DNA of 64,000 nt. Origin: Cellvibrio sp. KY-YJ-3 (GTDB lineage Bacteria > Pseudomonadota > Gammaproteobacteria > Pseudomonadales > Cellvibrionaceae). This document shows, in pieces, positions 27,628 through 54,386 of this stretch. The translations under genes and the position numbers were made by a program. The DNA lies in contig NZ_CP031727.1 in assembly GCF_008806955.1 (NCBI RefSeq), forward strand, positions 2,742,001 to 2,806,000, read 5' to 3'. A model generated the notes under the pieces. That model saw only the letters and a program-made list of their open reading frames with translations. It ran no database searches and had not been told where the DNA came from. Position 1 is the stretch's first letter. The number at the start of each line of letters is the position of its first letter.

Positions 27628-27670
27628 TTGTGTAAGCGTTTGTTTAAATATTGCCGATGTTTACAGTTCA

Positions 27671-27735: not shown

Positions 27736-27760
27736 TTATTGCCGCAATGATTTTCGGTAA

Positions 27761-30073: not shown

Positions 30074-30150
30074 TTTTATCTCCTCTTTTGGGTTGGTAGT
30101 GGCTCGCGTGATCTTTCAGAGAGTTGGATTCTTCTTAGTTAATGGTGGTT

Positions 30151-30160
30151 ATGTCAACAA
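30151..30160. promoter_or_regulatory. Candidate operator upstream of GH50
   Basis: ATGTCAACAA on plus, TTGTTGACAT on minus. It belongs to the WTGTTRACAW set and lies 78 bp before the GH50 start. Confidence 0.4.
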
Positions 30161-30229
30161 TTTACAATGTAAGGTTTTGTAAGTTGCACTTATTTATCGG
30201 ACAACCCAAAGAACTCTTGATTATTTAAG

Positions 30230-30262
30230 ATTGTATACAATAGTATGTTAATTGTATGCAAT
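30230..30262. promoter_or_regulatory. Twin 12-bp palindromes upstream of the second gntR
   Basis: ATTGTATACAAT (30230-30241, perfect) and ATTGTATGCAAT (30251-30262, one change) have centres 21 bp apart, that is two helical turns. They sit immediately before the GAGG ribosome-binding site of the gene at 30273. TTGT-NN-ACAA fits the operator style of FadR-type GntR proteins. Confidence 0.65.
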
Positions 30263-30272
30263 ATGAGGCGCA

Positions 30273-30941: not shown

Positions 30942-30954
30942 TACAGAGCAAAGA

Positions 30955-32109: not shown

Positions 32110-32117
32110 ATAAAATA

Positions 32118-33377: not shown

Positions 33378-33378
33378 A

Positions 33379-34383: not shown

Positions 34384-34457
34384 TTCGTGTTTTGTTGAGC
34401 GCAAGTAATAGATGCAGCCAAAGTTTAAGGCTGCTGGATTAATAGTGGAATACATCG

Positions 34458-36131: not shown

Positions 36132-36879
36132 GTGTTGATCCTTGCAGGCGATTGTTTTTAAAATCAATTAGACGTTGTAATTGCTGTAAGGATTGGATAA
36201 TAAATTTTATGGGAGCCAAAAAATGTTGCTCTTGTAACCGGTTTATTTCCACTTCACTTAAACTATTCAATCTATCGGTGTTGATGGTATAGATACCTTC
36301 GTAACTAAAACTTGATCCGTCATTAAGCGCGATGTTAATGCGCGCCGATTCCAGCAACTGATGGTTTAATAGCTGTGCAATAAATACTTTTGTCATGGTT
36401 TCACTGGGTGTTAATTGACTCAGTAATTCATTGATGGAATTTAAATAAGCGGTGGGTGTTCCGTCGCTATTAAAAAGCGACTCTCCTTGTGTGTGGCTAA
36501 TACGTTTGCTCTGAGTGTTGATGCTAATAAAACCACTGTCGTGTTCTGTGTTGGGTGCTTGGGTATTCTCAGTAGCATGGCGACGCCCAACAATAAATGG
36601 CTGACGTTGGATATGGAGCGGAATATAATTGGCGTTCCATTGGTGTTGATCTAAATAAAGATTCTCTTCAGGCGCAAAACCTAATAGGGCATATAGATTA
36701 AACTGACCTGTGTCTGGGTCTTTCATAAAACATATCGGGTATTCATGGGCTAATTTTTTTAGCTCATGGATCAATACCGGAACGTTATTAATATTTTCAC
36801 CGTATTCTGCACCATGCTCAGTAATCACTTTCAGTTGCGTGTGTATTTGGTGATTCAGTATTTCAATAGAAGTGCTCAT
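36118..36879 (-). CDS. SapC-family protein
   Basis: A 253-residue protein of the SapC family commonly encoded beside TonB-dependent sugar receptors in Caulobacter, Xanthomonas and Cellvibrio. Visible are VPVLIHELKKLAHEYPICF near residue 30, NLYALLGFAPEENLYL around 65, and YIPLHIQRQPFIVG near 87. No signal peptide is clear. Its biochemical role is unknown. It lies between the halogenase-like gene (37 bp upstream) and the lactonase gene (overlap 14 bp), so the three are likely co-transcribed with the receptor. Confidence 0.78.
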   Translation of the reverse strand: MSTSIEILNHQIHTQLKVITEHGAEYGENINNVPVLIHELKKLAHEYPICFMKDPDTGQFNLYALLGFAPEENLYLDQHQWNANYIPLHIQRQPFIVGRRHATENTQAPNTEHDSGFISINTQSKRISHTQGESLFNSDGTPTAYLNSINELLSQLTPSETMTKVFIAQLLNHQLLESARINIALNDGSSFSYEGIYTINTDRLNSLSEVEINRLQEQHFLAPIKFIIQSLQQLQRLIDFKNNRLQGSTHETA

Positions 36880-36916
36880 ATGTTCTCGCTATCGTAATTG
36901 GATAATAAAGTCCAAA

Positions 36917-38470: not shown

Positions 38471-38512
38471 ATTTGCACCGCCGTTTTTATTATCCATTTA
38501 ATCTGTTTCGTT

Positions 38513-38549
38513 TTAAAAAAAAGGTCGCCAATAGTAGGCGACCTTTTTT
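38513..38549 (-). terminator. Bidirectional-looking terminator after the TonB receptor gene
   Basis: A GGTCGCC / GGCGACC stem (38523-38529, 38537-38543) is flanked by A8-10 and T6 runs. It sits 35 bp after the receptor stop and before the halogenase-like start, so it may lower expression of the downstream partners relative to the receptor. Confidence 0.8.
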
Positions 38550-38584
38550 GTACTCAATCATAATTGGGTGTTAAACACTGACAA

Positions 38585-41332
38585 TTAGAATTTCGCACGT
38601 ACACCTACGTTGTAACGAGAACCGTATTGCTCGTAATCTTTAATTTGATTAGTCCAACGGCCGTAACGATGGGTTGCTTCATCGGTTACGTTCAAGCCTT
38701 CGATAAATACGGATAGATTCTCATTGATTTCATAACTTGCGTTGATATCAATTTGATCATAGGCCGCAGTAAAGACGGGTTCATTGCCGGATGACAGGAG
38801 GAACTTGTCGCGCCAGTTATAGGCAATACGAATTTGGAAACCATTATTTTCGTAGAAGCCGACAAAGTTGGCTGAATCGCTCAAGCCTTGTAGCGCCAAA
38901 TCATTGTCCAAACTGTAGACGTCGTAACTGTCATCGCTATCTACCATGGTGTAGTTAACAATGGTGCCGAAGCCTGAGTCGCCGAACATATGCTGTACAT
39001 TAAATTCCCAACCATCAACCAAAGAGTCGTTCAGGTTTTGTGGTGTGGAAACTTCCCAGACAATAGCTTGATCACCAGGTTGTGAAGTACAGGCTGATGT
39101 TGGGTTGGCTACTGAGCCACCTGGGCAACCAGGGCGCGGATTGGCGCTGGGGTTAGTCAGTGGGCCATTGGGGCTGTTGATGATGCGGTCTTCTTGGCCT
39201 ACAGCAATAAAGTTATCCACTTTCTTGCGGAAGTAACCACCGGATACATAACTGCCTTCGCCGTAGTACCACTCAAGTGACAAGTCGAGGTTTTCGGATT
39301 CGAACGGTAATAAACCCGGGTTGCCTTGATTTGCTTTGAATGGGCCGGTTGATAAGTGCGTGACTAAATCTGTGCCGGGATACATTGCATCAATATTGCT
39401 GCGCGCAATGGTTTTGCTGTACGAGAAACGCGTTACCAGGTCATCGGTTAAATTTAAACTTAAATCGAAGTTAGGTAAAAAATTATCGTAATTTCCTTTG
39501 AGTGTGTCCGACTGTTCGGTATCAGCGTATATCTTCGACATCTCCAGTGGCGATACCCAATTAAAACCTATCACTGGTTTAGTGATGGTGTAGGAGCTAA
39601 CATCGGTTTCTTCGTAGCGCAGGCCAACATTGGCTTTAACCGGCATTTGGTTAAATTCCGCATCAAAATCAAATGACAGATAAAGCGCGTTAGTCTCTTC
39701 TTCAATACCATTGGTGCCATAGTTCATTGGATTATTAAGATTTTGCGCGTACACCAAATCAATAAATTCATTGGCGCTAAATACAGGTACATATTCAAAA
39801 CCTATATCGCCTGTTTCAAAACTGAGATCCAGATTGGTCAGGTCCATGCCGCTTAATGCAAAGTTCGCGCTGTAAATATCTTTTACATCTACGGTGTTTT
39901 TGGTTTGTGCTACACCAAAATTAATCGCCGTAAGTGCACCTGCATCGGCATTTTGCCAAACGCCGTGCAATTGAACTTGTTGAATATTATTTTCCAGTTC
40001 ATGACCGCGCTCTTGATACAGGTCGCCGACAATATTGGCTTTGTTGTAGGCGCCGCCGGGTAAGTCTGAATCGTCATAGGAAACGCTGGGCAATTTGCCA
40101 GAGAAATCCGCTGCGATATCCACTGCACCAAACGGGTTTTTGGTATTGGCAATGCGCTCGGCAGGTTGTGCTCCTGGGTTCGCATGAGAGGTTGAGTCAT
40201 GTGCATCCAGAGTGAAAGACAATTGATCATTAACGTCCCACTCTACATTTACACCGAATGAATCATTTTCAGTATTAAAACCGTATTCCCAGGCCCAAAA
40301 GTTCAACTCATCGTTGCTGCGCGCCGGGTTAATGATGGTGCCATTGGCATCGGCTTTACCGGTTTGTACATCATCAAACCAAAAGCTCATGCGATTCATC
40401 GCGCCGTCTTCTTCAAGGCGTGACATGGTGTAATCAACAGTCGCGGTCAGGTTGTCGGTTGGGGCAAATTGCAATACCAATTGACCGTTTTGGCGGGTGC
40501 GCTCGTAGTTGGCATTTTCCAAATCGACAGTGGGGATGCGCCATGTCGCTTTAGTGGGGTTGCGATCAGTATCAATAGCGCTGGTGTCAGGATTTTGTTG
40601 GCCGGGATAGCCGCGGCTCCAACCATTTTGTGTGCCGATACGATCGACATGGAAGTTGCGTTCGGCGTAGGAATAAGATGCGAGTACGCCAAATTTTCCA
40701 TCGGCAAAAGTGTTGCTAATCATGCCGGAAATTTCCGGTGTTACTTCATCGCCTGTTTCAACAGTGGGCTCGATTACACCTTTCACGCTCGCGTGAGCAA
40801 CCAATTCATTAAAATCAAACGGCTTGGCGGTTTTCAAGTTAATGGTTGCGCCCAGTCCGCCTGAGGCCACGTTTGCTTTGCCGGTTTTATAAACCTCTAC
40901 GCCGGAAACACTTTCTGCGGCTATTTCACGGAAATTAAAACTGCGAGAAATGGGTGTGCCATCCAACGCGGATGAGTTGGGCATTTGACGGCCATTTAAA
41001 GTCACCAGATTAAAACTGGGGCCGAAGCCCCGAACGGTCACTTGGTTACCCTCATTGTTGCTCCGGTCGATGGATACACCGGTAATGCGTTGTAAAGATT
41101 CAGCGAGGTTGGTGTCGGGAAATTTACCTATGTCTTCGGCACTGATGGCATCTACTACGCCGCTTGCTTGCCGCTTGGTTTCCATTGCGCCGGTGAGTGA
41201 GCTTCTAATCCCGGTCACTACAACTTCTTCCACAGCGCCGGAATCTTGCGCATAAATATTGATGCTGGATGCAGCAATCACTGCTGCTGAAAGTACTTTT
41301 AGTTTGAAGCGGTCTTGAATAATCATCGCCAT
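38585..41332 (-). CDS. TonB-dependent receptor, agar oligosaccharide uptake
   Basis: A 915-residue outer-membrane receptor with AGGAG before the ATG, a signal peptide ending at NIYAQ, then a TonB-box-like VEEVVVTGIRSSL. The plug domain (about 45-165) has DTNLAESLQRITGVSIDR and NQVTVRGFGPSFNLVTLNGR. A 22-strand barrel ends with a final aromatic strand (YNVGVRAKF). It belongs to the TIGR01782-type receptors that import oligosaccharides in Xanthomonadales, Caulobacterales and Cellvibrio. It is divergent from the large GH86 gene; two TGTTAACA sites sit between them. It should import neoagarooligosaccharides, with the substrate inferred from location. Confidence 0.9.
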   Translation of the reverse strand: MAMIIQDRFKLKVLSAAVIAASSINIYAQDSGAVEEVVVTGIRSSLTGAMETKRQASGVVDAISAEDIGKFPDTNLAESLQRITGVSIDRSNNEGNQVTVRGFGPSFNLVTLNGRQMPNSSALDGTPISRSFNFREIAAESVSGVEVYKTGKANVASGGLGATINLKTAKPFDFNELVAHASVKGVIEPTVETGDEVTPEISGMISNTFADGKFGVLASYSYAERNFHVDRIGTQNGWSRGYPGQQNPDTSAIDTDRNPTKATWRIPTVDLENANYERTRQNGQLVLQFAPTDNLTATVDYTMSRLEEDGAMNRMSFWFDDVQTGKADANGTIINPARSNDELNFWAWEYGFNTENDSFGVNVEWDVNDQLSFTLDAHDSTSHANPGAQPAERIANTKNPFGAVDIAADFSGKLPSVSYDDSDLPGGAYNKANIVGDLYQERGHELENNIQQVQLHGVWQNADAGALTAINFGVAQTKNTVDVKDIYSANFALSGMDLTNLDLSFETGDIGFEYVPVFSANEFIDLVYAQNLNNPMNYGTNGIEEETNALYLSFDFDAEFNQMPVKANVGLRYEETDVSSYTITKPVIGFNWVSPLEMSKIYADTEQSDTLKGNYDNFLPNFDLSLNLTDDLVTRFSYSKTIARSNIDAMYPGTDLVTHLSTGPFKANQGNPGLLPFESENLDLSLEWYYGEGSYVSGGYFRKKVDNFIAVGQEDRIINSPNGPLTNPSANPRPGCPGGSVANPTSACTSQPGDQAIVWEVSTPQNLNDSLVDGWEFNVQHMFGDSGFGTIVNYTMVDSDDSYDVYSLDNDLALQGLSDSANFVGFYENNGFQIRIAYNWRDKFLLSSGNEPVFTAAYDQIDINASYEINENLSVFIEGLNVTDEATHRYGRWTNQIKDYEQYGSRYNVGVRAKF

Positions 41333-41516
41333 ACAACACTCTCCTAATGGTCTTTCATTTTTCTATATCGGCTTGTTTTGCCTTTGTTCGAATCAAAACA
41401 GGCCTTATGGTTGATTCGAAAGTAAGGGCGGTTTGCTAAAGATTGAAACGTTTGGTTTCCGCGCCTTGCCTTGCGCAGGTATCATCTGCCCACTTCTTTT
41501 TAATGTCAAACATTAA

Positions 41517-41526
41517 TTGTTAACAA
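41517..41526. promoter_or_regulatory. Candidate operator TTGTTAACAA (TonB receptor/GH86 divergent region)
   Basis: A perfect palindrome identical to 20362-20371, about 185 bp upstream of the receptor start. ATGTC / GACAT-like bases nearby add local symmetry. Confidence 0.5.
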
Positions 41527-41642
41527 AATGTGTGGTTGTTGGTCGAAGTGATGGGGCATGGGCTGTGACAGTGAGGAGAGTGGGTATCAGCTGCGCATGG
41601 GCGGGAGGCGGGAGCGTAAAAAAGTTAAAGATTAACTGTGAA

Positions 41643-41652
41643 ATGTTAACAA
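41643..41652. promoter_or_regulatory. Second candidate operator ATGTTAACAA in the same region
   Basis: One base differs from the preceding site. It is located about 190 bp upstream of the GH86 start, so each divergent gene has a nearby copy. Confidence 0.42.
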
Positions 41653-41840
41653 GGTTGTGTTAATGCAAAAAATATCGGTGTAAGATTCTATTTCTGCTAC
41701 TGGCACAGCTTCACCAGCAGGGGCTTGGGATTCGCGTAAATCAGAATCGTCTTGGCCAATCATTAATAACAATAATATGTTCTTCAGCTGTTAGTGTTTT
41801 TTCCAATAACGATAATTATCATTTCATCAAAGAGGCAATT

Positions 41841-44800
41841 ATGTTTAAACAACATAAACTCCGCCTTGCTGTTGCCGCTATTACTACTGGGGTTTTAAGT
41901 AGCATGGCGTCTTTAGCATTGGCGCAGAACGTTAAGGTTGATATCAACGCGAATATCAAACACTCGGTCAATGGCGTTTCTGATTTTGGACGCGAGCGGC
42001 GCATTACCATTCATGCCAGCCCAATGGAAAATGATTTCTTGGGTGAAAAAGAAAAGCTCGATTACCTGATGGATTTAGGTGTGACCTTTGGTCGCGATAA
42101 TGGTTTGTCGATGTACTATTTCAGCCAAACCGGTGGTGATAAGGCGCGCTCTACCGATACCCCCAGCCCATTTCCTTTTGGTTATGCCAACAAGCCTAAT
42201 CTGGCACAGTTGAGTGCTCTCTCGGCGCAATACAAAGAAAATTTGGATACCAAATACGCCGATGCGCAGGAATATTTTGGGCGCACTTCTTCATTGATTA
42301 TGGGGTCACAACCCAGACCCGCTTACCCTAACTGGAGTTCGTATTCCTGGTTTGGTGGTGGCTTGACCAGTGAAACTCCGTGGCGACCACGCACCGCACA
42401 AGATGCAGCAGAATGGTATGCGGAATTTTTAAATAAATTTTTTGTGCAATACGAGAATGATCCTACGGCTATTCCTATGCCCAAATATTGGGAGGTAGTC
42501 AACGAACCCGATATGTTGATGAACGTTCCCAGTCATGAAGGTCATGTATCTACTTGGGAAGAACTGTTCGAATTTCACAACGTGGTTGCCAATACTGTAC
42601 GTAGCAAGCTGGGTAACAAGGCTCCAAAAATCGGCGGCATGACCTGGGGTCTGCACGATTTGGAAAAAGGCGATGCAACTGCAACAGGTTCGCCGCGCAA
42701 TCGTGGCGATGCATTATTGAATATGTTTTATGGCTCGGATGCGGGTAGTGAGGCGATCAAAAATGCTATCCGTGTAAACAGCTTTAATAAATCGCCCACG
42801 ATGTCGCTCAATGGCCCAAGCCCAAGTTCGGATTGGTATCAATGGGATGTAATCTGGAAAGGCTTTATGGATGCCGCCGGTAAAAATATGGATTTCTATT
42901 CAGTCCATTTGTATGACTGGGCTTCTTGGGACGGAGCATCTACTCGCACCGGCGCTTTGCGTACGGGTTTCCAATCTGAAGGGGTTTTGGATTTGCTCGA
43001 ATGGTACGACATGAAAATGCTCGGTCAACGCAAAGAAGTGGTGATGTCGGAATACGGCAATATTACCGGCACCGACATTACTAAATTGGATCGTCAGCGC
43101 ATGCGCTGGGAAGTATTAAAGCCCTTCTCGCAAATGATGATGCAATTTATGGAGCGCCCTGATTACGTCACCTTGTCTATGCCGTTCATCGTGGTTAAGG
43201 GTGAGTGGGGCGATGAGGACAAAACCCATCCTTACGGCCAAAGTCTGTTGGATCGTGACTACTCAACTTGTACCGAAACACCTACGGCTTATACCAACTG
43301 TACCTGGAACTTTAACCCTTCCATTAAATGGTATGAATTGTGGCGTGACGTTGATGGCACCCGTGTAGATACCTATGCCAGTGACCGCGATATTCAAGTG
43401 GATGCCTATGTTAAGGGCAAACACATGTATGTCATTTTAAACAGTTTGGAAGCAAAGCCGACCACCGTAGACATGAACTTTGCGGGCATCAGCGGCAATG
43501 CGATCAAGAGCATCAAAATGCGCCACTTATATTTAGACGAGGCCATTGATGATGATAACAATCCAGCCAACGGTGTGGGTAAGCCAATTCTGGCCGATGC
43601 CACTCTGACCAGCCTGCCTAAAAACATCACAATTGGCGCAGATGCAACGGTGATTTTGGATATTGAGTACACCAATAACCCAAACCCCACACTCAACAGC
43701 AAAGAGCAGAAATACCCGGCTGAACCACTGACCGCCAATGCCCCGTATCGCGTTGCAGCCGCAAATGTGAGTGCGCAGGTGAACGGTGTGCCCAAACCGG
43801 CTAAAGGTGAAGCGCAACTGCGTGTGACCGGCGCCTTCTTTATGAATACCGGCATAGCGACTGGCTCGTCCGACAGCCGCGTATCGCTCAAAATTAACGG
43901 CAATACAGTACCGGTGAAAACCGATTGGCGCGGCGATGAGTCGAGAAGAAACGGGCGCTCCATGGCAACCTTGGAGATTCCGTTTGATGTAAGTTATCTA
44001 AGCGCAAGCGGCAATAACAACATTCAGTTAACGACGATTGCCCAGGGTGAAGTTGCGGCGGTGAGCCTGCAAGTGTGGGATATGGATACTCAAGTTACCC
44101 GTAGCATTCCCGCTGCTTGCAGCCCATGCACGGCCGTTACTGGCTTGAGCCTGAGCCAAACCAGCGTCAGCAATTTGTTGGTGACTCAATCGGTAGCGCT
44201 TCAACCAAGTGTTAGCCCAGCCAATGCCTCCAACCAAAACGTCACTTGGGTTTCATCTAACCCCAGTGTGGCCAGTGTTGATCAAAATGGTTTGGTGACC
44301 GGTAACAAGCCAGGTTCTGCCACTATCACCGCAAAAACAGTGGACGGTGCGTTAACTGCTACGGCTTCGGTATCTGTCAGCCAGTTGGTGCCTGCCGCTG
44401 TTTCTGTCGTGGGTTTGCCTAACCCTCTGTATATAGGCGCGAGCAAACAGCTAAGTGCGGCAGTTACGCCAATTCATGCACCTAACCGTAAAGTGACCTG
44501 GAGCAGCTCTAATCCGACCATTGCAACTGTGGATGCCCAAGGGGTAGTCACTGGCCTTAAGGCAGGCAATGTCACCATTACCGCAAAAACGGTCGCGAAC
44601 AACATAGTGGGCACGGCAAACATTCAGGTGAAAGCCAAGTTGTTGACCGGGATGGCCATATCGCCCGCGAGCACCTTGATCCCACAAAATGATAGCCTGC
44701 AAATCCAAACCAGTTTCACTCCGGCAGACGCCAGTGATAAGTCGGTCACTTGGACCTCCAGTAATACTGCAGTTGCAACCGTGAGCAGTACCGGATTGGT

Positions 44801-46343
44801 GAAAGGTGTTGGGTTGGGTGTGGCAGAGATTACCGGGCGCAGTAACGACGGTGGCTTTAGCGGTAAAACCCGAGTGGAAGTTGTTGCCTCCAATACCACA
44901 CTGACCTACGTCGAAGCCGAAGCTTTTAATCGCACCGGCGGAGCCTATGGCGGTTTTGTGAAAAGCACCACTGGTGCCGGCAATATCAATGACAACCAAA
45001 CCGGTGACTGGGTGGAGTTCGATATTAACTTTGCGCAGGCGGGTATTTACCAATTGGTATTGGCAACCGGTACACCTTTAGATGGCGCGGGTGTGGAGTT
45101 CCTGGTGGATGGTGTTTCCAATGGCCGCTCCTCCTTGCCTAACAATGGCAATTGGGATCAGCACGTGACGACGGTAGTAACCAATGGTCTGCAGATTAAC
45201 TCTGCAGGTACCCATACGCTGCGCTTGCTCAGTGTGGGTGCTGGCGGTGCTTATCAGTGGAATTTGGACAAGATTGGTTATCGTATTTTGAAAGCGACGA
45301 CTGGTGGGGCATCCTCAATTGCTTCATCGACACCGGCATCTTCTTCACCTTCATCAACGCCGTTGTCATCTTCATCGCGTTCATCGACACCATCCTCGTC
45401 TTCCGTCTCATTGAGTTCATCATCGCGCTCATCCACACTTGTATCTTCAAGCTCGTCGGTTGCATCCAGTGTGGCAACGGGTGGCTTGAAGTTGGTGTTG
45501 GAGGCTGAAGCATATACCGCGACGGGCGGTGTCTATCAAGGCTTCCAAAAATACACAACGGCAGCTGGAGTAGGGGCTATTAACTACAATCAACGTGGCG
45601 ATTGGGCCGATTACACCTTGAATGTCACCAGTGCGGGCACCTATAGTATTGACGCCTTCCTGGGTACCACACAAGACGGTGGTGCTATAGAGGTGTTGAT
45701 TGACGGTGTGTCAGTCGCGAAAAAAACCGTTGCCAATAACAACAATTGGGATGTGTTTGCCAAGTTAGTGGTAGCGAGTGGCGTGCAATTAAGTGCCGGT
45801 ACGCACAGTGTGCGCATTATCTCGGCGGGCACTACCGCATCGACTTGGGAGTGGAATGCAGATCGCATTGAGTTCACTCAAGTGGCAGTCGCTACTCCTT
45901 CCTCTTCATCGCGTGCTTCAAGTTCGGCGCCAGCGGCAGTACCGGTAGTGATGCAGGCTGAGTCGTACATCGCAACTGGCGGAACCTATCAGGGCTTCCA
46001 AAAGTACACCACTGCGGCGGGAGTAGGTGCTATTAACTACAACCAAACCGGTGACTGGGCGGACTACAGCATCAATGTGACTGCAACTGCTAACTATCGT
46101 ATCAATGCTTATCTCGGCACCACCCAAACTGGTGGCGCTATTGAGGTGTTGGTGGATGGTGTGTCAGTGGCGAAAAAGACTGTGCCCAACAATAACAATT
46201 GGGATACGTTTGCACTGCTGGAAGTTGGCAATAGCGTGCGTCTGACTCAGGGCACGCATAACGTGCGGATTATTTCTGCTGGTACGACGGCATCAACATG
46301 GGAATGGAATGCTGATCGCATCGAGTTTATTCCGGTAAATTAA
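41841..46343 (+). CDS. Giant GH86 beta-agarase/porphyranase with three Big_2-like and three CBM6 modules
   Basis: A secreted 1500-residue enzyme; GAGG lies 6 bases before the ATG and the Sec signal ends near ALAQ (residue 29). The GH86 barrel and accessory beta domains cover about 30-755, with acid/base Glu222 in EVVNEPDM and nucleophile Glu404 in VMSEYGN. Three Ig-like Big_2 repeats follow (about 764-1015; each with VTWxSSNPxVAxV and GxxTITAKT). Then come a CBM6 (about 1018-1145), a Ser/Pro linker, a second CBM6 (about 1210-1345), a short linker and a third CBM6 to the end. It is the longest depolymerase of the locus and is divergent from the TonB receptor. Specificity within GH86 is not resolved. 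Confidence 0.93.
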   Translation: MFKQHKLRLAVAAITTGVLSSMASLALAQNVKVDINANIKHSVNGVSDFGRERRITIHASPMENDFLGEKEKLDYLMDLGVTFGRDNGLSMYYFSQTGGDKARSTDTPSPFPFGYANKPNLAQLSALSAQYKENLDTKYADAQEYFGRTSSLIMGSQPRPAYPNWSSYSWFGGGLTSETPWRPRTAQDAAEWYAEFLNKFFVQYENDPTAIPMPKYWEVVNEPDMLMNVPSHEGHVSTWEELFEFHNVVANTVRSKLGNKAPKIGGMTWGLHDLEKGDATATGSPRNRGDALLNMFYGSDAGSEAIKNAIRVNSFNKSPTMSLNGPSPSSDWYQWDVIWKGFMDAAGKNMDFYSVHLYDWASWDGASTRTGALRTGFQSEGVLDLLEWYDMKMLGQRKEVVMSEYGNITGTDITKLDRQRMRWEVLKPFSQMMMQFMERPDYVTLSMPFIVVKGEWGDEDKTHPYGQSLLDRDYSTCTETPTAYTNCTWNFNPSIKWYELWRDVDGTRVDTYASDRDIQVDAYVKGKHMYVILNSLEAKPTTVDMNFAGISGNAIKSIKMRHLYLDEAIDDDNNPANGVGKPILADATLTSLPKNITIGADATVILDIEYTNNPNPTLNSKEQKYPAEPLTANAPYRVAAANVSAQVNGVPKPAKGEAQLRVTGAFFMNTGIATGSSDSRVSLKINGNTVPVKTDWRGDESRRNGRSMATLEIPFDVSYLSASGNNNIQLTTIAQGEVAAVSLQVWDMDTQVTRSIPAACSPCTAVTGLSLSQTSVSNLLVTQSVALQPSVSPANASNQNVTWVSSNPSVASVDQNGLVTGNKPGSATITAKTVDGALTATASVSVSQLVPAAVSVVGLPNPLYIGASKQLSAAVTPIHAPNRKVTWSSSNPTIATVDAQGVVTGLKAGNVTITAKTVANNIVGTANIQVKAKLLTGMAISPASTLIPQNDSLQIQTSFTPADASDKSVTWTSSNTAVATVSSTGLVKGVGLGVAEITGRSNDGGFSGKTRVEVVASNTTLTYVEAEAFNRTGGAYGGFVKSTTGAGNINDNQTGDWVEFDINFAQAGIYQLVLATGTPLDGAGVEFLVDGVSNGRSSLPNNGNWDQHVTTVVTNGLQINSAGTHTLRLLSVGAGGAYQWNLDKIGYRILKATTGGASSIASSTPASSSPSSTPLSSSSRSSTPSSSSVSLSSSSRSSTLVSSSSSVASSVATGGLKLVLEAEAYTATGGVYQGFQKYTTAAGVGAINYNQRGDWADYTLNVTSAGTYSIDAFLGTTQDGGAIEVLIDGVSVAKKTVANNNNWDVFAKLVVASGVQLSAGTHSVRIISAGTTASTWEWNADRIEFTQVAVATPSSSSRASSSAPAAVPVVMQAESYIATGGTYQGFQKYTTAAGVGAINYNQTGDWADYSINVTATANYRINAYLGTTQTGGAIEVLVDGVSVAKKTVPNNNNWDTFALLEVGNSVRLTQGTHNVRIISAGTTASTWEWNADRIEFIPVN

Positions 46344-46369
46344 TCCTACAAAAATCCCCTTGCTCGTTT

Positions 46370-46400
46370 GGCCCACACTTTAATCGGTGTGGGCCTTTTT
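46370..46400 (+). terminator. Strong terminator after the giant GH86 gene
   Basis: GGCCCACAC / GTGTGGGCC (46370-46378, 46387-46395) with TTTTT following, 27 bp past the stop. It marks the right end of the agar locus. Confidence 0.93.
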
Positions 46401-46603
46401 ATTGGGCTGAACTCTCACGATTTTAGTCAGTTTAATTTAAAAAACGATTCTTTTGAGTTCCGCACAATTGCTGCAGATTTCGCCAGAAATAACGCAGACG
46501 TGAAACGCTACAATTGGCAGCTAGAATTCAAAAAACACGATTTAGTTAAAAACCTTGATGGGCTTCCCAGGTTCTAGTGGACATACTTAGGCTACTCCGA
46601 AAA

Positions 46604-47281
46604 TTCTTTCAGTTTTGACAAACTGCGATTGCTCTTGCTCGCGCCTTTAAGGGTGATCCGATAGTAATAGCTGGCTTTGATGGTATGGTATAAAAGTCGC
46701 TGAACATATTGACCATCAAAATTGGCATATCCGCCGACGCAGGGTGTTAGAAAATGCTCCTGTCTATAACGACTTTGAACAGCTCATTATTGATAACAAG
46801 TCTGATCGCGGGATATTGCTCGCTACGTTTAAACCATCAGCAATTATCAGAATGGAAATTGTAGAAGATGACCGGGAATGGAGTGCAGAGAAGCTCGAAA
46901 AAGTAAAATTGAGGTCAAAACAAAATAAATTATTCGAAGACAATGACAAAGTCTTCTCCGTGGTTTCAAAACTGCCCTATAAATTCAAGTATGTTTTTAC
47001 TGACGTTACAGGGCGCGAACGAACGCTGACGATTAATGATTGGGAAATCGGTGCACTATTCTGGAAAGAAGAAAAACGCTTTGGTGGTGATGAAGCCAAG
47101 GCATTGGAAAGCGTGAAGCACATGTACCTTACACAACATATTAAAGACCGTGACGTTCATTTTTTTTGTGGGCACCACCCAATCCTGGGACAGCATGAAC
47201 GCGCCAAATCCGTTCATGATCATTGGTGTGTTCACACCGCCCCATGAATTTCAACAAGCTTTGTTTTGAGCGTGTTACATG
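46604..47281 (+). pseudogene. Degraded gene of unknown family, several frameshifts
   Basis: Coherent protein is recovered only by changing frame. YSENSFSFDKL continues in another frame as QTAIALARAFKGDPIVIAGFDG. A third frame gives WYGIKVAEHIDHQNWHIRRR, joining directly to ENAPVYNDFEQLI and then EEKRFGGDEAKALES. An eight-T run at 47160-47167 shifts the end: with seven T the frame reads HFFVGTTQSW, APNPFMIIGVFTPP and a stop at 47281. The regular composition shows a real ancestral protein of about 220 residues. I do not recognise the family. It is the first element of a decayed region. Confidence 0.6.
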
Positions 47282-47362
47282 TTTGCAAACGCGCTTCGGT
47301 GACTGCTTATTCCAAGGTGCCGGCCATGAATAATACTTAAGGAATACGAGGAAAATAATCAG

Positions 47363-47714
47363 ATGATTAAAACGGAAATTACATCCATCGCTGAATATTT
47401 AGAATGGACCGAGCAATTTCGCCACGATGCCGCGCAGGAAAATTCGATCACCTTTTATCGCGGGCACGCAGACATTGCTTATCAGCTAGCTTGTTCCATG
47501 CGTTTACCGTGAAAATAGCACTGGCGAAAGCTTATAGGACGGTAGAGCATCATTTGTATCAGGAAATGTACGACAGGATCTCACAGGATTTGTTAAAGAC
47601 CCTACTGTGTTTGAAAGACTGGTTAGAATGCAACATCATGGGCTGCCCACCAGATTATTGAATATCACTACCAACCCCCTGGTTGCGTTGTATTTTGCTT
47701 GCGAAGCTGAGCCC
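47363..47714 (+). pseudogene. Broken FRG-domain gene
   Basis: The start at 47363 gives IAEYLEWTEQF and ITFYRGHADIAYQLACSMRL, the N-terminal FRG motif, and then a stop near 47510. A second frame gives AYRTVEHHLYQEMYD and a third gives FERLVRMQHHGLPTRLLNIT and NPLVALYFACE, the classical FRG core. At least two frameshifts separate the parts. FRG proteins are common in genomic islands and plausible in phage defence or toxin roles, but none is demonstrated. After about 47714 the similarity pattern ends; 47715-48131 holds no gene I can support. Confidence 0.7.
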
Positions 47715-48131
47715 CAATATCATGATCGTCAAGCTAAACACATCAACCTGCGAATAGCCAAGCTCTCCAATGACGAGCCAGTACAACCCGGTCGGGTATC
47801 GTTAGCGGAATCTAACTCTGGAGTTGAGCTAAACGATTCCTGCCTTTCGGTAAGTCCCGGCTTGTAAGTCTTGGCGAGATCAGGGCCAGGAGCTGCGAAT
47901 AGGAGATCAGCTGCTCTACGGGATTTAAGAGAAGATATGCGACGGAATAGCGCTTCAAATTCTGGATCTATATCGGGAACCATATTTCACCTTCAGCATG
48001 TGCGATAGCTAGCATTCAACCAAGCATACCTGCTGCCTACCAATTACGGAAAGTAATTTCCGATGCAGGCCCAACGCCCCAATAGTTGTTGCCTGCGAGA
48101 GCGTTATATCATCCGGCAGATCAAGTGACGA

Positions 48132-48193
48132 TAATTAGAATCATTGCTATAGATATAATACCGGTTTGTTTAAAGTTGGCCAAATGTGCTGAA
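48132..48193 (+). repeat. Imperfect direct repeat, copy 1
   Basis: About 62 bp sharing TAAT-AGAATCATT, ATAGA and TTTGTTTAAAGTT with the copy at 48221-48282, spaced 89 bp apart. No gene covers it. Confidence 0.5.
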
Positions 48194-48220
48194 ACCCCAT
48201 CAAATGGGCAATCAGCATGG

Positions 48221-48282
48221 TAATAAGAATCATTTGCCATAGAAAAAATCGAGCTTTTGTTTAAAGTTAACCATATCTGAAG
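48221..48282 (+). repeat. Imperfect direct repeat, copy 2
   Basis: Second copy of the repeat beginning at 48132, just upstream of the coiled-coil pseudogene. It may be a duplicated promoter or recombination region. Confidence 0.5.
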
Positions 48283-48318
48283 GAACTAGCAGATGAAAGC
48301 CCACTGAATTCCGGCAAA

Positions 48319-49146
48319 ATGCCTGCTATCAGCGAGGCATTCGGCTCACTGATTGAGCAACTCGCTGCTCACCTACACCAGGAAGCACAAGAGTTGATTG
48401 CCGAGCGGGAAGCCAGTCTGCAAGCAATGACTGATAGTTTGAAAAGCCAATTGGAATCCCAACAAAAGGCGCTAGCTAGTACGACCGATGAAAACCAACA
48501 GCTTAAAGCCCAGTTAGCCAACTATGAGAAAAACTATAATGCTTTGACTGGGGCAGAGGCTCAAAAAATTTTGCTGGTACGAGTGGATCAGCAATTAGCA
48601 GACAAAGACGTATTGATAGTGGAGAAGGATAACCACATTCGCCCTCTGGAAGAAAAACATCAACACGCCCGAGAAGCCCTGGAACACTACTGCCAGTCAG
48701 TCAAAAACCGGCGCGACCAAGATCAGCGTCGTCACGAGCAACAGTTACAACAACTATAGGCAGAGATCCGTCAGTTGAACCAGACCTTATCGATCAGACA
48801 AACTGAGGTGACCCAACTCAGTACCGCTAATGCCGAGCTAATCGCCGAAGTGCGCCAGCTTCGCAAGGCTCTGAATGATGCAGGGCAGCAGCTACAGACA
48901 GCGGAGTCAAAATTGTTCACCGTCAATGAACAATTCCAAACCGGAACCGCCCAAATCGTCGAGCTGAGAACTGCACGGGATCAGCTGCTTAGTGAAAAAT
49001 CTTATCTTGGCGAACGACTGGGACAGATGGAAAAATCCTTTAAAGCTATTGAGATTGAACTTGTGTCGGTCAAAACCGAACTTGCAGTGAAAAACCAACT
49101 GCTGGAATCATTTCGCCACCCTCTCCAAACTAAAGCCCATGGGTGA
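48319..49146 (+). pseudogene. Coiled-coil (KfrA-like) protein gene with an in-frame amber stop
   Basis: One frame runs from 48319 (open back to 48271) to 49146, interrupted only by a TAG at 48757-48759. The product is almost wholly charged heptad-type helix (LKSQLESQQKALAS, VRQLRKALNDAGQQLQTAES). This resembles the long coiled-coil part of KfrA-type plasmid and integrative-element proteins. The usual N-terminal DNA-binding domain is missing. Without the stop it would be about 275 residues. Its stop overlaps the start of the HAD gene (49139/49151), so they were once an operon. The KfrA link is a resemblance only. Confidence 0.55.
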
Positions 49147-49786
49147 GCAAATGAATACTTCACCGGCATTAATTGTTTTCGATCTCTATGGAACACTGGT
49201 TCAGTTTGGGATTAAGCACCATCCTTTTCGAAAGATTCTACTTTGGGCCAGGGAGCAGGGGCGCAACCCACAACCAGATGATGCACGAAAAATGATGACG
49301 ATAGACAAGGATTGCGGTGAGTTGCTAGCAACACTTGGGATATTCCCGCCCGCCAATATACTCGCATAATTACACCAGGATATTCAGGAAGAGCTAGCCA
49401 GCCTGACGCTCTTTGATGATGTGTTACCAGCTCTGGACATATTGGCCAAGCAAGGAATTCCACTGGCCATTTGCTCCAATTTGGCCAAACCCTACGGAGT
49501 AGTGATTGATAAGCTATTACCGCAATTCAAATTCTCCAGACACCTCAGCTATGAAATTGGCGCAATAAAGCCTGACAGAGAAATTTACGAATCGATTGTA
49601 GCGGGTACCGGCTCAGCACCGGGGCAAATCCTCTTTATTGGTGATACATGTCTAGCCGACTATGAGGGGCCAACCGAGTTTGGGTTTCGAGCTAAACATC
49701 TAGTCAGAAGCCAGCCATCAGAGGGCAATACCATTGCTTCACTAAAAGACGTTTTGCGGTTGCTGACTCACCAAATGACCGAATGA
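49139..49786 (+). pseudogene. HAD-family hydrolase gene interrupted by one stop codon
   Basis: A frame of 216 codons with a single TAA at about 49367-49369; both sides are in the same frame. Motif I is VFDLYGTLV, motif II lies in ICSNLA, the motif III lysine in IGAIKPDREIYE, and motif IV in ILFIGDTCLADYEGP, so all HAD catalytic motifs survive. The probable start is the ATG at 49151. A subclass IA HAD phosphatase is likely; the substrate is unknown. The single lesion suggests recent inactivation. Confidence 0.7.
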
Positions 49787-49789
49787 TGA

Positions 49790-50236
49790 CACGGCATTCG
49801 CGCGGGATCTCAAAGCGCCCGGGGCGTAAATGTCATTAAAGAAGTTTCACGTGAAAACTATCACTTTCGGAGCTTTTTGGCTGAGCCGCTTCAGTCGCTG
49901 GCTGGTCAATTTGACCTTAAATACTGGCCGTATCTTCCTGCAGTGATCAAGGAAATAGGCGATAATGCCGACGCAGCCGAAATCTACGCAACAGACCCAA
50001 TAACGCAGGCGGCAACATCTTCAAACCGCTCATCAAAAGCAGATTTTGTCAGAGCAGTGCTGTCGATGATTGATGAACTCAAGGACAAGCCTAGTTTGGA
50101 TTTCCCCCAGAGTTTCTGCTTAAGTGATTCAGCAATGGCAGATATCGTCAATACATGCCTAATGCTGAGTGCAGAAGAGCTGGTTGATAGCACCTATGTT
50201 AAAAATTTACGGCATAGGGAAAAGCGCTCCCTGTAA
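49790..50236 (+). pseudogene. Gene fragment, C-terminal part of an unrecognised protein
   Basis: An open frame without a proper start, beginning just after the HAD stop: HGIRAGSQSARGVNVIKEVS and RENYHFRSFLAEPLQSLAGQ, then a mixed helical region ending YVKNLRHREKRSL. The composition looks like real protein. I cannot name the family. It is probably the 3' end of a gene whose 5' part was deleted. Confidence 0.45.
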
Positions 50237-50274
50237 ACAAAACCTACTTTCAATTGTAGGAATTCAAGGGGGCA

Positions 50275-50299
50275 GGATTTGGCGGATCTCGCCAAATCC
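50275..50299 (+). terminator. Perfect 10-bp hairpin, terminator-like
   Basis: GGATTTGGCG / CGCCAAATCC with a 5-base loop, followed by TTTAATG, 39 bp after the gene fragment. From here to about 50660 I see no gene, only short palindromes such as GGGATCATCCC. Confidence 0.5.
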
Positions 50300-50668
50300 T
50301 TTAATGACAAATAGTCGCTATGGATAAAATTGGGGTTTAAGCTAAATAGCATTGGACAGTTTTATGCTGAAAGCCTTATGCCGTAAGGGTTTCAAGCTAT
50401 TTATGTAATATTTGACGGGATCATCCCGGTACCCCTTTAAAAGGATGTTGTGAATATTACATCGACGCTGCGTCGGTCAGTTTCCGGCCGCGTAAGGTAA
50501 GTGTATCGGCGTCAATTTGCTAGGCATGGCAGAGCAGATCGAAATCGATAGACGCTGAATTGGGAGTCAAGTCTCACTGATATGTAATCAGCACCTTTTG
50601 TCGAAAACTCCAATTCAACCCCTTTCAGATCGGGGTATTCTTAAGCCAAGACTGAACGAAAGTTTTTC

Positions 50669-50890
50669 TTGGCTTCTGAAACCGCATTGGTTTTTCATAA
50701 AAGTATGCATAGATTTTCACTTGTTGTCGATTGCATAATGAAACACAAAACCACTAATGAAATGTTGAAACCTACTCAATGGATAAAATACCTAAACAAT
50801 GAACGGACTCGTCTAGGCAGGATGTGCTACGGTAGAGCACCACTGGAAATATTGCTTGATGGAGGACGGATTTGGGCGGAAAAAATTTAG
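50669..50890 (+). pseudogene. IS481-family transposase, C-terminal remnant
   Basis: The end of the frame reads KPTQWIKYLNNERTRLGRMC and YGRAPLEILLDGGRIWAEKI, the typical C-terminus of IS481-type DDE transposases (integrase core, rve). The N-terminal helix-turn-helix and most of the DDE core are missing. The following bases to about 50955 (GTCAGATAAAGTCTGAG) look like the element's terminal sequence. The IS256 copy has inserted right beside this end. Confidence 0.65.
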
Positions 50891-50964
50891 CTCAAGTCTA
50901 ATCTGACAGATACCTGTAAAAACCGGTAACCGTCAGATAAAGTCTGAGCCAGTACTGCTGAGCA

Positions 50965-52265
50965 GAGACTGTAAACAAATCTGTGTAACTGTTTATCATT
51001 CACCTAAAAAGGTAAGGTAAACAGCATGAACAAAAAAGACCTCGAAGCCTTTGCGCGCGAAGCCGCAAAGCACATGAAAACAGAAAAAGATCTGAGCGAT
51101 TTTAGCCAGATGCTCACCAAAATCACTGTTGAAGCTGCCCTCAACGGTGAGCTTGATGCACACCTTGGCTACGAAAAACATCAAAAATCATCTGCGCCTA
51201 ATAGCCGTAATGGCTACACCACCAAAACACTGAAAACAGAAGATGGGGAATTTGAATTACAAACTCCGCGTGACCGCGAGGGGAGTTTTGAGCCGCAGCT
51301 GATTAAAAAACACCAAACCCGCTTTACCTCCATGGATGACAAAATCCTAAGCCTTTACGCCAAAGGCATGACCACGCGGGAAATTGTTGCCACATTTAAA
51401 GAAATGTACGGGGCAGATGTATCGGCCACACTCATTTCAAAAGTCACCGACGCCGTAATCGAACAGGTGATCGAGTGGCAATCGCGCCCACTGGATGCGG
51501 TTTATCCCATTGTTTATCTCGATTGCATTGTGATAAAAATCCGGCAGGACAAGCAGGTCATCAACAAATCCATCTATCTCGCGCTAGGCGTGACGATGGA
51601 GGGGCAGAAGGAGCTTTTAGGTCTGTGGATATCGGAAAATGAAGGTGCAAAATTCTGGTTAAGCGTATTAACCGAGCTACAAAATCGCGGCGTTCGCGAC
51701 ATCCTGATCGCCTGTGTTGATGGTCTTAAAGGATTCCCCGACGCGATTGCAGCTGCCTATCCGCACACGCAAATTCAGCTCTGTATCGTGCACATGGTTC
51801 GCAACTCAGTGAAGTACGTGCCTTGGAGGGATTACAAAGCGGTAACAGCGGATTTAAAACGAATTTATCAATCCGTCACCGAAGAAGAGGCGCTGCTGGC
51901 GCTGGAACAATTTGGTGAGAGATGGGATGAAAAGTATCCGCAAATTAGCCGATGCTGGCATACACACTGGCACAATGTGAGCACGCTCTTTCGTTATCCA
52001 GACGACATTCGCCGTGCGATTTATACCACCAATGCGATTGAGTCTCTGAACAGCGTGATTCGGCAGGCGATTAAGAAGCGAAAATTATTCCCCACTGATG
52101 ATTCTGCCAAGAAGGTTATTTTTTTGGCCATCCAAGATGCATCAAAAAAATGGACAATGCCGATTCGCAACTGGAAGGCGGCATTGAATCATTTTATGAT
52201 TGTGTTCGATGATCGCCTGGCCGACTATCGTTAAAAGGCAGTTACACAGAATTTTTTACAGGCTC
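50965..52265 (+). mobile_element. Complete IS256-family insertion sequence
   Basis: 1301 bp. Terminal inverted repeats of 27 bp at 50965-50991 and 52239-52265 match at 24 positions (GAG-CTGTAAA and CTGTGTAACTG blocks). The 8-bp target duplication GCTGAGCA flanks it exactly (50957-50964 and 52266-52273), as expected for this family. The duplication and the intact transposase point to a recent insertion. Confidence 0.95.
51026..52234 (+). CDS. IS256-family transposase (mutator type)
   Basis: 402 residues, full length for the family. The DDE triad is visible at Asp166 (VYLDCIVIK), Asp232 (IACVDGLKGFPDAI) and Glu339 (TTNAIESLNSVIRQ). The N-terminal region has HLGYEKH and RNGYTTKTLKT, usual for IS256. 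It lies between the element's inverted repeats, with no frameshift, and is probably active. Confidence 0.95.
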   Translation: MNKKDLEAFAREAAKHMKTEKDLSDFSQMLTKITVEAALNGELDAHLGYEKHQKSSAPNSRNGYTTKTLKTEDGEFELQTPRDREGSFEPQLIKKHQTRFTSMDDKILSLYAKGMTTREIVATFKEMYGADVSATLISKVTDAVIEQVIEWQSRPLDAVYPIVYLDCIVIKIRQDKQVINKSIYLALGVTMEGQKELLGLWISENEGAKFWLSVLTELQNRGVRDILIACVDGLKGFPDAIAAAYPHTQIQLCIVHMVRNSVKYVPWRDYKAVTADLKRIYQSVTEEEALLALEQFGERWDEKYPQISRCWHTHWHNVSTLFRYPDDIRRAIYTTNAIESLNSVIRQAIKKRKLFPTDDSAKKVIFLAIQDASKKWTMPIRNWKAALNHFMIVFDDRLADYR

Positions 52266-52308
52266 GCTGAGCATAGCCTACGTTGCTTCTGGGCAATTCA
52301 AGGCATAA

Positions 52309-53202
52309 TTAACTCAAATTTAAAACATCAATAAGCTCAGCTTTCGAGTTAATATTGGAGGAGCTTATGGTCGCTTCGTTAAACAGATAGTCTGCTTTGC
52401 TGCCCGATCTATCAATTTTGAGCGCTTCAAAATCGAATAATTTAGTGTCAGCCAACTGACTTCCGGTCACATTTTGAATTGCTCCAAAAATATTTTCAAT
52501 TCGGCCAGGATGCTCCTTCTCCCACTCTTGCAACATGTTTTTAATCTGTTGTCGCTGCAAGTTTTCTTGGCTACCGCAAAGATTACACGGAATAATAGGA
52601 AACTGCATATATTCTGCGTACTCAGTAAGATCATCCTCTCTGCAGTAGGCTAAGGGTCGTATAACGATGTTTCGTTTGTCGTCAGATAGTAGTTTAGGCG
52701 GCATCGCTTTTAACTTAGATCCGAAAAACATATTTAAGAATAGTGTTTCAACTATGTCATCACGGTGGTGTCCAAGCGCAATCTTGGTGGCCCCAATATC
52801 TTCAGCGAATGAATAGAGGGTGCCTCTACGAAGGCGAGAGCATAGCCCGCAAGTAGTTTTTCCTTCTTCAATCTTAGATCTAACGACAGAGTAGGTATCT
52901 TTATCGATAATATAATATGGAATTTCGAGGCGACTTAGGTATTCGGGCAAAACGTGCTCGGGAAATCCTGGCTGTTTTTGATCCAAGTTAACTGCAATGA
53001 CTTCAAATTTGATTGGAGCTGTTTTTTTAAGATGAATAAGTATATCAAGCATTGCAAATGAATCTTTACCGCCCGACAAACAGGCCATGACAACATCGCC
53101 TTCTTCAATCATGTTGTAATCTGAAATGGCGTTCCCAACGTTTTTTCGAATCCTTTTCCTTAGCTTGTTAAATTCGACTTTCTCTCTATTTGCATCCGAC
53201 AT
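52309..53202 (-). CDS. ttcA: tRNA 2-thiocytidine(32) synthetase TtcA, complete copy
   Basis: A 297-residue cytoplasmic enzyme that thiolates C32 of certain tRNAs using ATP and a 4Fe-4S cluster. The PP-loop SGGKDS lies at residues 43-48, the cluster cysteines in [12 protein letters not shown] and [10 protein letters not shown], and [17 protein letters not shown] between them. It is about 70% similar by eye to the truncated plus-strand copy at 53625, so it is a divergent second version, not a tandem duplicate. It lies at the end of a mobile region and in opposite orientation. It probably replaces the function of the disrupted host gene. Confidence 0.92.
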
Positions 53203-53624
53203 TTGGGCTACCAGTTAAATAAATTATCTATTGAAAATTAATACATGAGGCTAAAGTTGGGGTGATCGACTAGCAAGGAAAGCATCTAATTAATTGCGGC
53301 AATCAGGCAGTGGTCAATAGATGGATAAAACAGTCGATCTAAGATATGAGCCTTATTGGCGACTGCAGGCAGTTAGCTAATTAACACAATTAAAAAGTTG
53401 CAATTCTATCTCATTCTCGACGAACCAGCAGTAAAAAGTGCAATTCGTTCGAACCAGAATGAAAACAAAAGGATGAGTAGAATTGATTCACAATAATGGC
53501 TCTCGATTTAATATGAAAACCCACTTTCTTTACAAATTTCCTTCTTTTTGTAAATATTTATGTTGTTGCAGACAGCTCCAGTCATGGGAGAGTTGATTTT
53601 TTTAACAGTATTTATTGGCTTTAC
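53203..53624. other. AT-rich gap between the two ttcA copies, candidate attachment region
   Basis: 422 bp with no supported gene. It ends exactly where ttcA homology begins (GGTAAGGACTC at 53625). It contains many poly-T/A tracts and TTGCAATTC-like repeats (53397, 53440). It would hold the att junction if an element integrated into ttcA. No integrase gene is visible here. Confidence 0.4.
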
Positions 53625-54386
53625 GGTAAGGACTCTTACACCATGCTCGATATTTTATTGAGCCTGCAAAAGACCGCGCCCATTTCGTTTGAAATAGTGG
53701 CGGTGAATATGGACCAAAAGCAGCCTGGTTTCCCCGAGCATATCCTGCCGCAGTATTTGGCAGAGCTGGGTGTGCCTTATCACATCATCGAGCGCGACAC
53801 CTACAGCATCGTAAAAGAAGTCGTGCCCGAAGGTAAAACCACCTGCGGTCTTTGCTCCCGTTTGCGCCGCGGTACGCTGTATGGTTTTGCCGATGAAATC
53901 GGTGCGACCAAAATCGCTTTGGGCCATCATCGCGACGATATTATCGAAACCCTGTTTTTGAATATGTTCTTTGGCGGCAAGTTAAAAGCCATGCCACCCA
54001 AGCTGCTTTCGGACGATAAGCGCAACATCGTCATTCGCCCCTTGGCCTATTGTTCGGAAGAGGATATTGCGCATTTTGCGGAGTTGAAGGGCTTCCCGAT
54101 TATTCCCTGCAACCTCTGCGGGTCGCAGGAAAACCTGCAGCGTCAGGTGGTTAAAGACATGCTGGTGCAGTGGGAGCGTCAATTCCCCGGCCGCACCGAA
54201 ACCATTTTTACCGCCATCCGCAATGTACAGCCCTCGCAGCTGGCTGATTTGAACCTGTTTGATTTCATCAATCTGGAAACCAACAAGCACGCTGCCGAGG
54301 AAGATGACGACAGCTGCGCCATTAGCGCTCCGCTTGGTCGCATAGAAGATGCAGTGCAATACGTGGATGTGTTGGATATTCGCTAG
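53625..54386 (+). pseudogene. ttcA: 5'-truncated ttcA (host copy remnant)
   Basis: ttcA homology begins at GGT AAG GAC TCT (the GKDS of the SGGKDS PP-loop) and continues unbroken to the stop at 54386. About 45 N-terminal codons, including the start of the ATP-binding loop, are missing, and the preceding bases are unrelated. The internal ATG at 53643 would give 247 residues without the PP-loop, which could not bind ATP normally. The cluster cysteines ([18 protein letters not shown]) are intact, and composition matches the core genes to its right. It is the likely right-hand junction of an element integrated in ttcA. Confidence 0.85.

Follow-up and report, generated by a model that had tools for sequence, protein, structure and literature searches.

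A 110.6-kb element probably inserted in the PP-loop codons of ttcA in Cellvibrio sp. KY-YJ-3, with a second ttcA and an agar-use locus as likely cargo

Results

Split host ttcA and borders of the insertion

The window analysed here is a stretch of 64,000 nucleotides from Cellvibrio sp. KY-YJ-3 (genome G000, contig C1, 2742001-2806000), whose genome is a single closed contig of 4,489,528 bases. Its right part contains two versions of the gene ttcA, a plus-strand 3' piece and a complete, diverged copy on the minus strand, and genes for agar use lie to their left. The features at the border of the insertion described below are the following.

1..53624, plus strand: right 53.6 kb of a 110,626-bp element, borders matched to the uninterrupted ttcA of the relative G007; the left 57 kb lie outside the window
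53608..53624, plus strand: right terminal motif C' GTATTTATTGGCTTTAC, an imperfect inverted repeat of the left end ATGTAGCCAATAAGTAT
53625..53630, plus strand: right-border hexamer GGTAAG (Gly-Lys), equal to the left-border hexamer ending at G000:C1 2684998
53631..54386, plus strand: host ttcA 3' piece, from sequence comparison

The plus-strand ttcA homology started abruptly at 53625 with GGT AAG GAC TCT (Gly-Lys-Asp-Ser), directly preceded by a 422-bp stretch of unrelated DNA (53203-53624). When the ttcA 5' region of G007 and its upstream neighbour were used as the query, the host 5' piece was found at G000:C1 2683529-2684998, 57 kb left of the window and in the predicted orientation, and the same search matched the 3' piece from 53624. 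The 5' piece was adjoined by the same divergent neighbour gene as in G007, which gave a weak YcgR-type hit. The insertion between the two halves measured 110,626 bp (G000:C1 2684999-2795624), and the cut fell in the Gly-Lys codons of the ATP-binding PP-loop (SGGK/DS). The left border read ..TCC GGC GGT AAG followed by ATGTAGCCAATAAGTATT.. and the right border ..AGTATTTATTGGCTTTAC followed by GGTAAG GAC.., with the hexamer GGTAAG the same at both borders and one further matching C before the direct repeat. The element ends, ATGTAGCCAATAAGTAT (left) and GTAAAGCCAATAAATAC (right), formed imperfect inverted terminal repeats.

When the two flanks were joined by a script, a gap-free TtcA was obtained that agrees with the uninterrupted gene of G007 at 293 of 306 residues, and both flanks were syntenic with G007 at 77-78% DNA identity. 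The 5' piece lies in the same genome and in the predicted orientation, and the joined flanks show no gap, indicating that the junction is not due to chance. A ttcA match was present in all 57 genomes searched, G000 included; in G020, with ttcA over two contigs, and in G002, where ttcA runs to the contig end, an interruption cannot be judged.

A first-pass annotation of the window had proposed that an element cut ttcA within the PP-loop codons, split the host gene and brought its own copy, and all three parts are supported. It had also advised a search left of the window for the missing 5' piece and for a short direct repeat matching bases around 53625, and both were found. Two findings were named as speaking against its reading, relatives without the agar locus sharing the same truncated junction, and a 5' piece immediately left of 46344 together with agar genes conserved in the core genome. 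Neither applies, as G007 has a whole ttcA and lacks the agarase tested, and the 5' piece lies well beyond the window.

Recombinase operon and element class

Four open reading frames (ORFs) of 415, 553, 768 and 136 aa, each overlapping or abutting the next, adjoin the left border on the element side, some 51-57 kb to the left of the window. In line with the first-pass annotation, no integrase was seen in the ORF lists of the window itself. The 415-aa protein contained a phage-integrase domain (E 4.1e-13), and the 553-aa protein matched a site-specific integrase model (E 5.5e-23, below the model cut-off). A homologue of the 553-aa protein from locus L054 was modelled with 11 sequences (mean pLDDT 74.8, pTM 0.53), and its best PDB matches were Cre (E 1.4e-5) and XerA with low TM-scores, so that the model suggests a recombinase-like fold. 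Alignments inspected by eye showed the catalytic residues in proteins one and three, while the second has Asn in place of the box II His.

The gene order matched that of the operon of strand-biased circularizing integrative elements (SEs), intA-tfp-intB-srap, with the non-catalytic protein second and the operon at the left end (PMC10214605). An SE forms its circle with a strand bias and leaves no empty site. SE-6945 on pSEA1 encodes a comparable series of 408, 581, 720 and 135 aa. The imperfect inverted terminal repeats of 13-19 bp and the 6-bp spacer that mark SEs were also found in the G000 element.

Two other classes were considered and rejected. In GInts, ginA and ginB are catalytic, ginC is degenerate and ginD follows, whereas in G000 the degenerate protein stands second and the third has retained its catalytic residues. 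With the HMMER filters on, the GmtX, GmtY and GmtZ models of NCBIfam for gamma-mobile-trio islands were not matched by any of these four proteins at E up to 10. No conjugation genes were noticed in the ORF lists, and no search with relaxase or transfer models was aimed at the whole element. A Photobacterium toruni plasmid (L053 5034-11230) bears a distantly related operon with a VPA1267-family gene after it, a neighbour type of gamma-mobile-trio islands.

Recurrence at the same codon in other genomes

One scan of a genome collection with the large recombinase as query gave 27 loci. In 19 of them tblastn placed the end of the host ttcA 5' piece at the same PP-loop codon, immediately ahead of the operon, and the same SGGK border was recognised by eye in L060 and L075, giving 21 in total. 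The named hosts were Pseudomonas, Stutzerimonas, Vreelandella, Spongiibacter, Neomelitea and Marinobacter, and the bins were those of Halomonas, Halothiobacillus, Pseudohongiella and two deltaproteobacteria. The remaining six loci were a short contig (L071) and five loci without a ttcA piece (L072, L074, L076, L078 and L079; 27-31% identity) from Photobacterium, Ferrimonas and Idiomarina.

A second TtcA was searched for in 25 genomes, the short-contig loci L071 and L079 being left out. The element was at a PP-loop site in 21 of them, and an intact second ttcA was present in 18 of these 21 and in 18 of the 18 where the host 3' side was found, while the other four genomes had one close TtcA each. 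The second ttcA lay directly after the fourth operon gene in L067-L069, L073, L075 and L077; elsewhere it lay near the right border, 170-340 bp from the matched 3' piece, and in G000 near the right border but inverted.

The large recombinase was matched in 7 of 390 genomes of the order (among them G174, G305 and G408, left out of examination), and a relative of the 553-aa protein in one of 21 genus genomes, which was G000 itself. Elements with both borders on one contig measured 21,643 (G434), 25,559 (G423), 28,304 (G429), 35,760 (G442), 53,355 (G428), 61,183 (G425) and 110,626 bp (G000), and that of G426 about 31.1 kb (calculated by hand); the largest of 37 SEs has 58,529 bp (PMC10214605). 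No near match to the right border was found in E. coli genomes.

In a Halothiobacillus bin (L060 near 1707, and L090), the gene interrupted at these same SGGK codons is a divergent PP-loop gene resembling TtcA (36% identity); attL reads GGCAAG and attR GGTAAA, and an intact ttcA is present. The deltaproteobacterial bins L075 and L077, which may be contaminated, have the element in a divergent ttcA of their own (about 41% identical); PMC10214605 reports SEs from Gammaproteobacteria only.

Border hexamers

The border hexamer was GGNAAR (Gly-Lys) in 36 of 36 borders of 18 genomes, G000 included. The left and right hexamers differed in 11 of the 18, at third codon positions only, and in three of the eight genomes with both borders on one contig. 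This is the mark expected when the attR hexamer comes from the donor and the attL hexamer from the target, as in SE and Tn554. Since the right hexamer of SEs stems from the donor, the right hexamers found here can be read as codons of an earlier site, and the transfer history of these elements may thus be readable from sequence. The two hexamers of G000 are equal and so uninformative about donor and target.

Relatives in another PP-loop gene on plasmids

On the P. aeruginosa plasmid pPA942-IMP45 (NZ_CP129201.1 458,624-494,331; L049, L181), a related element of 35,708 bp was found with a large recombinase 55% identical and its first two genes broken. Its target is another PP-loop gene, reading ..VVAWSGGK on the left and GKDSSVTLN.. 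on the right, with a weak PAPS-reductase hit (E 0.009, below the cut-off). A second P. aeruginosa plasmid (NZ_OR283034.1 near 238,780; L182) carries a 97% copy with its right border in the same PAPS-reductase-like gene. Both plasmids carry ttcA although their target is not ttcA, and the pPA942-IMP45 element shares its ttcA with the P. otitidis element at 100% identity over 305 aa.

Element-borne ttcA

The right end of the element contains the following features.

46486..53624, no strand: right end of the element, with broken island genes, the IS256-family transposase, the element ttcA and the C' end, from sequence and profile hits
49152..49812, plus strand: broken HAD hydrolase, 82.6% identical over 661 bp to DNA on the right flank of the G014 agar block
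51026-52234: IS256-family transposase, from a profile hit
52309..53202, minus strand: complete ttcA of the element, 297 codons; SGGKDS and both Cys motifs present (NCBIfam TtcA, Pfam PP-loop family)

The element ttcA scored 477 bits against the NCBIfam TtcA cut-off of 272 and was 66% identical to the host fragment. The first-pass description of a complete, divergent, inverted ttcA carried by the element, beside insertion sequences and decayed genes, is therefore upheld. The broken genes lie left of the transposase, among them the HAD hydrolase, whose second ORF (49421-49786) gave HAD hits and whose DNA corresponds to a single ORF region in G014.

SGGKDS and both Cys motifs were kept in 14 of 14 element TtcA copies checked. 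Among eight Pseudomonas-type element copies, pN/pS was 0.014-0.082 for 27 of the 28 pairs (the remaining pair has two differences), compared with 0.058-0.248 for the eight host 3' pieces; the Pseudomonas-type copies are under strong purifying selection. It is plausible that the second ttcA is the working copy.

In a careful tree of 82 rows, the G000 host fragment joined G007. One group (support 98/82) held the 14 element copies with the host rows L082 and L083 (Photobacterium) and L129, with the fragments L112 and L113 as its sister, and a clade of element copies alone was rejected (p-AU 0.0055). The rows of this tree were chosen by motif patterns, which dropped both deltaproteobacterial copies and several hosts, including the best class match. 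In a wider quick tree, the element copies and the same three hosts grouped again (support 83), with the deltaproteobacterial copies inside. This tree had 91 rows from a blastp filter, with a true make-up of 16 element copies, 58 hosts and 17 fragments; two rows labelled as hosts (L120_m1488 and L116_m16512) are the element copies of G000 and G423, for which the codon counts given here were corrected, and three matching ORFs without the motif were omitted.

The serine before the PP-loop was encoded by AGY in 13 of 16 element copies compared with 3 of 58 hosts, all three inside the element group, and the PP-loop lysine by AAA in 16 of 16 compared with 26 of 58; the G000 element copy retains a host-like TCG serine. 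Selection for recoding of the site is only suggested by these counts, as shared ancestry can explain the codons.

A single foreign source of the G000 element ttcA was sought among 321 class genomes (248 with a match) and not found, the best being 72% identical; a Photobacterium copy was 79% identical over 200 residues. The TtcA of L129 (1480-2358, G481) and of the Photobacterium loci L082 and L083 is of the element type, single or without a fragment seen beside it. The element copies could derive from such genes, or these genes could be copies that persisted after an element was lost. In Spongiibacter pelagi, Neomelitea salexigens and a Spongiibacteraceae bin (loci L067, L068 and L069), the element ttcA was identical over at least the first 150 residues while the host ttcA pieces differed, which points to recent spread between genera.

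Agar block as cargo

The agar-use genes reach from the left of the window to the broken genes described above.

1..46485, no strand: right part of the likely agar-use cargo block (G000:C1 2690959-2788485), from pairwise blastn and Pfam

Pfam hits in the block included Agarase_CBM, GH16, porphyranase domains, GH43-like, aldehyde dehydrogenase and KDPG aldolase. The block was collinear, with gaps, to G014 C1 531,615-630,526 and G004 C2 812,951-908,579, and partially collinear, inverted, to G019 C4 57,293-136,335, the long aligned pieces being 82-98% identical. In these three relatives the block lies away from ttcA, whose open frames have 310-345 aa, and no relative of the 553-aa operon protein was found in them (21 genus genomes searched). 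In G014 its neighbours are ffh on one side and, on the other, ORFs of 678, 553 and 133 aa, the first with a weak integrase hit (L160 15376-19401, L176 9463-13613); in G004 it adjoins an integrase of 434 aa that neighbours a mutS-like ORF (L178 10164-11468). One agarase had matches in 7 of 57 genomes, G000 included.

In G000 the block begins about 200 bp after the last operon gene. Its position between the two ttcA halves indicates that the block is island cargo of the element inserted in ttcA, as the first-pass annotation had supposed and as judged from the sequence comparison, with three relatives holding the block elsewhere beside an uninterrupted ttcA. At the left cargo edge, a 2,081-aa protein with DUF4347 and cadherin-like repeats lies just after a helicase (L037 10977-17222). 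A 77-kb agarase cluster is described in Cellvibrio sp. KY-GH-1, with no mobile element mentioned in the excerpt (PMC10163192).

Discussion

Favoured explanation and its rivals

On the sequence evidence, the insertion is very probably a 110.6-kb integrative element with an SE/Tn554-like operon, which split the host ttcA, brought a replacement ttcA and carried the agar locus as cargo. The element would enter host ttcA at the Gly-Lys codons of the PP-loop, with the two tyrosine recombinases (415 and 768 aa), the 553-aa recombinase-fold protein without the catalytic His and the 136-aa accessory protein acting together. We infer a circular form, presently mobile, which would recombine with the target over the 6-bp spacer in an order of strand exchange that leaves the target's own hexamer at the left border and the hexamer of the previous site at the right. 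The split host gene is presumably dead, and the diverged element ttcA, if expressed, would take over the TtcA role, so that insertion into a conserved gene would cost the host little.

Several observations weigh against this explanation. The host fragment of G000 showed no relaxed selection, its distances to three outgroups being close to those of G007, so that the insertion is recent or the fragment still constrained. The element ttcA of G000 lies inverted and its sister relationship to the Pseudomonas copies is not clear, whereas the recombinases of this element are closest to the Pseudomonas ones, so that this ttcA may be a later swap. No second ttcA was found in the metagenome bins G424, G427 and G431, where only the 5' piece was found. 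For ten of the 18 genomes with hexamers, the borders are on different contigs, and their pairing assumes one element per genome. In hhalign comparisons with SE-Pda04Ya311 and SE-6945, shallow ones with alignments of 4-14 rows against single sequences, the best IntA match had E 0.0084 and Tfp and IntB had no significant match, nor had Srap, compared with SE-6945 only. The G000 element is thus built like an SE and is likened to that class by architecture, while kinship in sequence is no more than possible.

An old agar locus and a ttcA element may instead have been joined later by nested insertion or recombination, in which case the element as bordered may never have moved as a unit. This is a possibility of some weight, though we hold it unlikely. 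It would account for the presence of the block in G014, G004 and G019, which lack this operon and two of which have other recombinase genes next to it, for the six other exact-ended elements of 21.6-61.2 kb and a seventh of about 31 kb, well under 110.6 kb, and for the broken genes and insertion sequence in the right 7 kb. However, the element has both its borders, hexamers and inverted repeats intact, the block follows the operon closely, as expected for cargo, and the ttcA split and the second ttcA are unaffected by this history. It is improbable that the second ttcA is a chance passenger and that rescue is unneeded because TtcA is dispensable. A deletion mutant has been used in E. coli (PMC4632033), the inverted G000 copy is of unsettled origin, and the position and orientation of the second ttcA differ among element types; but the regular presence of an intact copy wherever the host 3' side was found, the single tree group of element copies under strong purifying selection and the ttcA on two plasmids argue otherwise.

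The first-pass annotation had drawn on the Rac prophage, whose attachment gene is ttcA (PMC4632033), and the analogy holds for the gene but not for the vehicle, which here is an element with an SE-like four-gene operon. The borders of Rac are N-terminal and keep TtcA whole, whereas here the PP-loop is cut; the large recombinase had no match in 50,697 phage records, and a scan of IMG/VR confirmed no relative among 52 candidate stretches. A Rac-like prophage or remnant is rejected on these grounds as extremely improbable. We give just as little credence to an assembly artefact joining two ttcA-bearing regions: only one assembly of the G000 genome was available, but it is a single closed contig, the joined-flank gene has no gaps and the same border anatomy recurs in 19 other loci of many species.

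As an extension of the favoured explanation, we tentatively suggest, without expecting it to be the likelier outcome, that this element lineage homes on PP-loop DNA, mostly that of ttcA but also that of other PP-loop genes, and carries ttcA as an obligatory fifth core gene whose recoded PP-loop escapes insertion. Copies might then outlive the element and become the only TtcA of the host, which would explain the Photobacterium TtcA in the element group.

Comparison with known systems

SE-6283 inserts in bcp and carries a diverged bcp homologue proposed to compensate (PMC9345347, PMC5991714). Like the G000 element, it combines a conserved target gene and a diverged copy with a four-gene operon at one end, a 6-bp spacer and imperfect terminal repeats, but its target is bcp and its size 13.8 kb; the SEs compared here by sequence were SE-6945 and SE-Pda04Ya311. 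The Tn554-related Tn552-II of Staphylococcus also has the donor att at the right end and a target-gene-like gene, tgl, proposed as rescue, but it has a three-gene tnpABC without a Tfp counterpart, a 7-bp att and a size of 9 kb, and belongs to Firmicutes (PMC12486829). The recA-mobile elements, compared by description only, disrupt recA and carry a divergent recA, and differ in this target and in being described as integrative and conjugative elements (PMC5991714). GInts share three recombinase-type genes with a small fourth at the 5' end and large cargo, but their degenerate recombinase is third and not second, and they target, among other sites, an ABC transporter gene and ssb ends (PMC5385486). 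Excision of Rac alters four N-terminal TtcA residues and is driven by an excisionase, and Rac, unlike the G000 element, carries phage genes (PMC4632033).

The replacement of a target gene is thus a strategy already known from SE-6283, the recA-mobile elements and Tn552-II. No ttcA-targeting element of this kind was reported in the titles and abstract beginnings listed by text searches of open-licence papers, and ttcA would be a further target beside the few known cases (bcp, recA, tgl) of break-and-replace elements. The agar-use pathway can apparently sit on a movable unit, the same block lying beside other recombinase genes in relatives. Recurrence of the pattern at a single codon in many genera makes the rescue idea testable, and these elements would offer a natural parallel to engineered home-and-rescue drives.

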